Below, one piece after another: positions 400 to 36,637 of a stretch of DNA of 64,000 nt (position 1 is its first letter; each line of letters starts with the position of its first letter). The notes beneath the pieces are model-generated. The model did not search any database and had not been told where the DNA came from. It worked only from the letters and a program-made list of their open reading frames with translations. This DNA is from Arcuatula senhousia (Eukaryota; Mollusca; Bivalvia; Mytilida; Mytilidae), in contig OZ020304.1 of assembly GCA_963971305.1 (NCBI GenBank), forward strand, positions 33,404,502-33,468,501, written 5' to 3'. The position numbers and the translations under genes are program-made.

Positions 400-411
400 A
401 TGCACTATCAG
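400..411 (+). CDS. Candidate first coding exon of the Ig/chitin-binding gene
   Basis: An ATG at 400 is followed by three codons (M-H-Y-Q) and a strong donor CAG|GTCAGT. The phase is 0, as the exon at 6146 requires. An AT-rich TATA-like stretch lies around 288-300, about 100 bases upstream. No other start was traced for this gene within the window, but a 12-nt coding exon cannot be proved by eye; a start outside the window or at 6185 remains possible. Confidence 0.4.

Positions 412-36637: not shown

Follow-up and report, generated by a model that had tools for sequence, protein, structure and literature searches.

Does a mussel genome encode a membrane-bound protein that pairs immunoglobulin (Ig)-like domains with chitin binding, much as the VCBPs, secreted proteins of chordate gut immunity, do, and, if so, is it a VCBP by descent? 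The question is raised by a gene in a 64,000-nucleotide stretch of the Arcuatula senhousia genome (assembly GCA_963971305.1, contig OZ020304.1, positions 33,404,502 to 33,468,501 of the forward strand), which we call the window and whose numbering is used throughout. Our preferred answer, to which we give a probability of roughly 0.55, is that the gene encodes a type II membrane glycoprotein acting as a chitin tether or receptor at the cell surface, with its CBM14 domain outermost, and that this protein is a membrane-held counterpart of the VCBPs that was built independently. The layout underlying this answer (tail, helix, stalk, two Ig-like domains, and CBM14, in type II orientation) was proposed in a preliminary description of the window and is common to the window gene and its Mytilus homologs.

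Exons, joins, and homologs

From the helix to the stop codon, the gene is carried by five plus-strand exons whose phases agree and which together give one open frame of 1014 nt (337 residues) ending in a stop. These are the transmembrane signal-anchor exon at 12606..12696 (VFWWVKFGLGILVVVIAIVGTVFFVLFYTH), a stalk exon at 20429..20464 (SDKNPPTVEQQ, phase 1-1), the predicted V-like domain Ig1 at 21220..21537 (single exon, 318 nt, phase 1-1), the predicted Ig-like domain Ig2 at 23808..24128 (single exon, 321 nt, phase 1-1), and the C-terminal CBM14 (chitin-binding type-2) exon, with the stop, at 36390..36637. Both introns separating the Ig1, Ig2, and CBM14 exons are phase 1. The exon lengths fit the 213 residues (106-318) that had been allotted to the Ig pair, and the two single-exon domains do carry glycosylation sequons as described, five in Ig1 and three in Ig2; the CBM14 exon has none.

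When the Ig1, Ig2, and CBM14 exons were joined and searched against 5.8 billion proteins (172 candidates, E ≤ 1), four proteins matched, P0001 to P0004, with 51-53% identity, 97-98% query cover, and E values of 2e-89 to 4e-96. A profile search (3193 candidates, E ≤ 10) and a query with the Ig2 region of P0003 (28 candidates) again returned these four alone; the searches require shared exact 5-residue words, and remote relatives could be missed. One homolog, the sole relative with a species name, is labeled "unnamed protein product [Mytilus edulis]", Chitin-binding type-2 domain-containing protein. The other three, of 443, 459, and 465 residues, have longest contigs of 1812, 1879, and 2049 bases and are probably spliced transcripts, since contigs of 1.8-2.0 kb are too short for introns such as these. 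All four have the complete layout of the window gene and differ from it in the length and sequence of the middle tail and stalk. They form two groups, P0001/P0002 (83% identity within) and P0003/P0004 (74% within), with 51-54% between them, and the window gene is about equidistant from both; the split reflects either a gene present in two copies or two lineages of mussels.

The homologs bear on the joins directly. The helix exon matches P0001 and P0002 at a tblastn E of 1.6e-7 and is identical to the four homologs at 14-17 of 30 residues, in keeping with the one hydrophobic helix claimed earlier. The stalk exon, which may not be the only one, matches nothing by its sequence alone; its last T, however, completes TGT across the join (T + GT) and yields the Cys before Ig1 that is conserved at this place in all four homologs. 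At the Ig2/CBM14 join, the split codon G + AC gives the Asp of ICRDC, which is Asp in P0001, P0002, and P0004 and Glu in P0003. A micro-exon at about 28598-28615, between Ig2 and CBM14, was rejected: the motif ICR[DE]C[IV]F is uninterrupted in the homologs, and direct joining of the Ig2 exon to the CBM14 exon, which we adopt from the sequence, gives ICRDCIF. Our splice scores were hand-made and perform poorly here, the homolog-backed Ig1 acceptor scoring only 0.14.

Could unrelated exons have been joined by mistake? The introns are large, and only some of the eleven exons of the preliminary description are verified: six are supported in the window, with phases agreeing from the helix on, but the count of eleven is unconfirmed. 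Against an artifact stand the same joins in four homologs, three of them from the 1.8-2.0 kb contigs, and the homolog residues formed by the split codons. Such an artifact is thus refuted for the Ig1, Ig2, and CBM14 part and, through the helix match, almost refuted for the part that begins at the helix; we give it practically no weight. On this comparison, we regard the gene as real and common to the Arcuatula window and Mytilus.

Domains, membrane orientation, and tail

The CBM14 assignment is clear at the level of Pfam, in which CBM_14 scores 32.7 bits in the last exon (E 8.1e-8; cut-off, 22.1) and exceeds the cut-off in 4/4 homologs as well. The C-terminal domain had been described as having six cysteines; the exon has nine, among which a six-Cys CBM14 core can presumably be selected by spacing. 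We infer that the domain binds chitin outside the cell. The module appears to be easily recruited in this genome, since scoring 150 of 235 candidates already gave at least 104 CBM14 matches at E ≤ 0.001.

The two Ig-like domains were identified by structure modeling, since sequence searches with Pfam and the Protein Data Bank (PDB) miss both: Pfam recognized CBM14 and neither Ig domain in the window exons and the four homologs, and the PDB search recognized an Ig fold in neither domain. The model gives Ig1 an Ig fold, V-like, with fair confidence and Ig2 an Ig-like fold with low confidence, so that the domain pair is predicted to contain the Ig beta-sandwich and the earlier assignment of two Ig-like domains holds to that extent. 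A model of Ig1 from its single sequence was of no use (predicted local distance difference test score, 40). The fold match of the pair is 7xad chain A, which, judged by length, we take to be PD-L1, and that of Ig1 is a T-cell-receptor V domain. The likeness to these two is of predicted fold only, with 7-14% identity among the matches listed, and they have no chitin domain. PD-L1 and the T-cell receptor also sit in the membrane in the orientation opposite to that of the mussel protein. Among the matches listed from a viral fold library, herpesvirus membrane glycoproteins came out on top, with some phage and other proteins; no lead was adopted from them.

Ig1 has an unusual cysteine arrangement in the window gene and all four homologs. 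One conserved Cys fits strand B, and a later motif, CDSGG-x-Y-x-F/L, is found in 5/5 sequences; by our own strand assignment, the usual F-strand Cys is replaced by a hydrophobic residue, and another Cys lies eight residues earlier, again in 5/5. The B-F cysteine pair is usual in the Ig superfamily, although not universal. Ig2 has six conserved cysteines with a plausible B-F pair among them. A profile comparison of Ig1 with Ig2 gave no significant kinship.

As to orientation, the first 38 residues are hydrophilic in 4/4 homologs (best 19-residue mean, -0.26) and are followed by one internal hydrophobic segment; a leader peptide is absent from all four, in which it was tested. Cysteines number 17-18 after the helix and 0-1 before it. 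We take the C-terminus to be extracellular, and the protein to be type II, because the cysteines cluster after the helix and because CBM14 and Ig-like domains belong to extracellular types. The homologs have 6-9 sequons after the helix, yet P0003 and P0004 have two each in their tails, and topology is not decided by sequons; the charge difference flanking the helix is weak.

The tail begins further upstream than had been supposed. ATG 400, the proposed start, is internal to an exon at 361..411, and the conserved tail exon lies beyond it: in a six-frame scan of the 64 kb window and the 40 kb preceding it, the N-terminal block of the homologs (FTNIRPSPTNPHKKPIYINTGNL and similar) was found 1.7 kb upstream of the window, with a score of 70.2 against 22.5 for the next. 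The corresponding Pro-rich tail exon, with good splice scores, is at -1757..-1674 (contig positions 33402744-33402827), outside the window. A search for the first coding exon (2-8 codons, donor score ≥ 4.5) in the 40 kb upstream gave three ATG candidates, none convincing. The plus-strand exon at 361..411 (RADSSASSSSERSMHYQ, phase 0-0) is open and has AG/GT bounds (a weak acceptor, -0.5; donor, 5.3); it resembles the Ser-rich tails of P0001 (RSDSLSSSGSDNKHQ) and P0003 (DRSDSSSSNNS), Ser-rich likeness being weak evidence. P0002 is missing a 15-residue piece at this position, which may reflect exon skipping or a species difference. Chaining of exons across 412-12605 by splice score and similarity gave weak candidates only, and two plus-strand candidates for the middle tail are kept as tentative: HNDIKLHSY at 3747..3775, with good splice scores and weak likeness to INHNDVYLEE of P0003, and FDQEKEGK at 8077..8100, from splice scores and weak likeness to the charged segment just ahead of the helix.

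The N-terminal block has the pattern F..[IV]R.SP...H..P..I, and R..P..P, which we take to be a possible SH3 ligand, occurs in the window gene and in all the homologs but P0004. Between the homolog groups the block is 54-58% identical, compared to 18-24% for the middle tail, and this conservation beside a diverging middle tail suggests that the block is a docking site.

The outer domains also diverge unequally. P0001 and P0002 are 81% identical in Ig1, 97% in Ig2, and 78% in CBM14; P0003 and P0004 are 71%, 91%, and 75% identical, respectively; and the four pairs between groups give 39-44%, 77-78%, and 53-64%. Ig2 is thus the most conserved outer domain between homologs and Ig1 the least or nearly so. 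The window gene compares with the homologs at 40-44% in Ig1, 62-64% in Ig2, and 53-70% in CBM14. The faster divergence of Ig1 relative to Ig2 and the conserved cytosolic block would suit an immune receptor in which CBM14 and a fast-changing Ig1 bind fungi or chitinous parasites at the hemocyte or gut surface and the tail signals, and in the parts of PMC7947342 available, VCBP-C of Ciona binds bacteria, fungi, and chitin. We nevertheless consider an immune receptor rather unlikely: Ig1 is membrane-proximal and not at the tip, and one copy was found, with no expansion. In the genome (1.04 Gb, 1803 contigs), the Ig2 exon query found one strong place (next E, 1.8), as did the CBM14 exon query (next E, 0.07), and P0003 as the query found this locus alone at E < 0.1, the helix exon scoring 0.15. 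The gene thus appears to be single copy as far as these searches reach; a distant copy could be missed.

Relation to VCBPs and possible roles

The accessible parts of PMC7947342, PMC4757023, and PMC13428168 report VCBPs from Ciona and amphioxus; PMC4346834, as far as its available text goes, cites them only as an amphioxus example, and a passage of PMC5877582 assigns them to "echinoderm", in conflict with PMC7947342. As portrayed in the sections at hand of PMC7947342 and PMC4757023, they share with the mussel protein a pair of Ig-type domains and, after it, a chitin-binding domain at the C-terminus. They differ, in the same sections, in having a leader, in being secreted, and in the N-terminal position of their V-type domains, whereas the mussel protein has an anchor on its N-terminal side and its chitin domain outermost. 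The mussel gene differs further in the one copy found here and in an Ig1 without the usual F-strand Cys.

The identical fold order would be explained by common descent, with the leader of a VCBP replaced by a signal anchor, but we find this very improbable. The canonical F-strand Cys is missing from Ig1 in 5/5 sequences, and the three protein searches yield the same four relatives. PDB sequence matches to an E of 10 include none named as a VCBP, a weak test given that Ig sequences diverge fast and that no VCBP was aligned directly; the fold matches listed name none either, which says little. Because the homologs have no leader, one copy of the gene was found here, and Ig1 does not have the usual Ig cysteine, we do not class the mussel gene as a VCBP. 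The phrase "membrane-bound VCBP counterpart" is fair as an analogy; VCBP descent is unsupported. The gene had been called independently built or ancient; the former is likelier, and a separate origin from VCBPs is probable, because searches of 5.8 billion proteins by shared 5-residue words keep returning the same four relatives, the sole named one being from Mytilus.

FREPs of mollusks are secreted proteins that are not known to carry CBM14. They likewise combine Ig domains with a recognition domain in a molluscan protein, the latter being fibrinogen-like, according to the available portion of PMC5877582. Among the papers listed by literature searches, no title or abstract opening reports a VCBP-like protein or a type II Ig-CBM14 protein from a bivalve, subscription papers being mostly outside this coverage.

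In the type II tether or receptor that we favor, CBM14 would grip extracellular chitin, either the animal's own, in the lining of the gut or the matrix of the shell, or that on fungi and other cells. Ig1 and Ig2, with their glycosylation sites, would serve as a stalk and as a partner-binding surface, and the tail would couple the grip to the cell interior via its conserved block. The protein would then do, held in the membrane, what chordate VCBPs do as secreted proteins, and by analogy its function would resemble theirs in that Ig folds and chitin binding are combined in one protein. A more specific version, in which this independent counterpart is a signal-capable receptor whose CBM14 reads chitin, whose cytosolic block relays, and whose Ig1 is a new subtype with a moved F-strand Cys, is put forward tentatively.

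Chitin matrices of mollusks usually include CBM14 proteins, and the sole named relative comes from a shelled mussel; both points would suit a shell, byssus, or periostracum anchor that attaches the organic matrix, through its chitin framework, to the mantle epithelium. In its accessible text, a paper on the Mytilus mantle transcriptome (PMC6359903) does not include this protein and refers to CBM_14 a single time, for chitinase-like transcripts. We judge such an anchor unlikely.

Should the tether or receptor reading be correct, a protostome protein that joins Ig domains to chitin recognition, yet is held in the membrane and has a conserved tail, would mean that animals combined the two more than once, and it would provide a testable chitin receptor in farmed, ecologically important bivalves. 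Since sequence profiles miss these Ig domains, similar proteins may go overlooked elsewhere.

Sequence around the gene

Within the long intron that separates Ig2 from CBM14, minus-strand open frames at 26280-27081 and 32963-33580 look like decayed pieces of long interspersed nuclear elements (LINEs); of three LINE-like pieces scanned, only one matches an endonuclease, weakly (E 0.016) and short of the cut-off. Downstream of the gene, 40687-50038 holds three near-identical direct repeats with starts spaced about 4.1-4.3 kb apart and, on the minus strand, two copies of a 435-residue frame that ends in a zinc-knuckle-like CxxCxxxGHxxxxC; the region looks like a retroelement gag array, and a 170-residue piece of the frame had no Pfam match. 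An open frame at 51830-52117 (MDEYETVDLPQLN...) is hydrophilic at its start, contains a single strongly hydrophobic stretch, and is perhaps the first exon of a neighboring type II membrane protein. A long trinucleotide run at 19116-19423 gives rise to homopolymer open frames, and long tandem-repeat arrays with units of 39-41 bases occupy 59522-61017.
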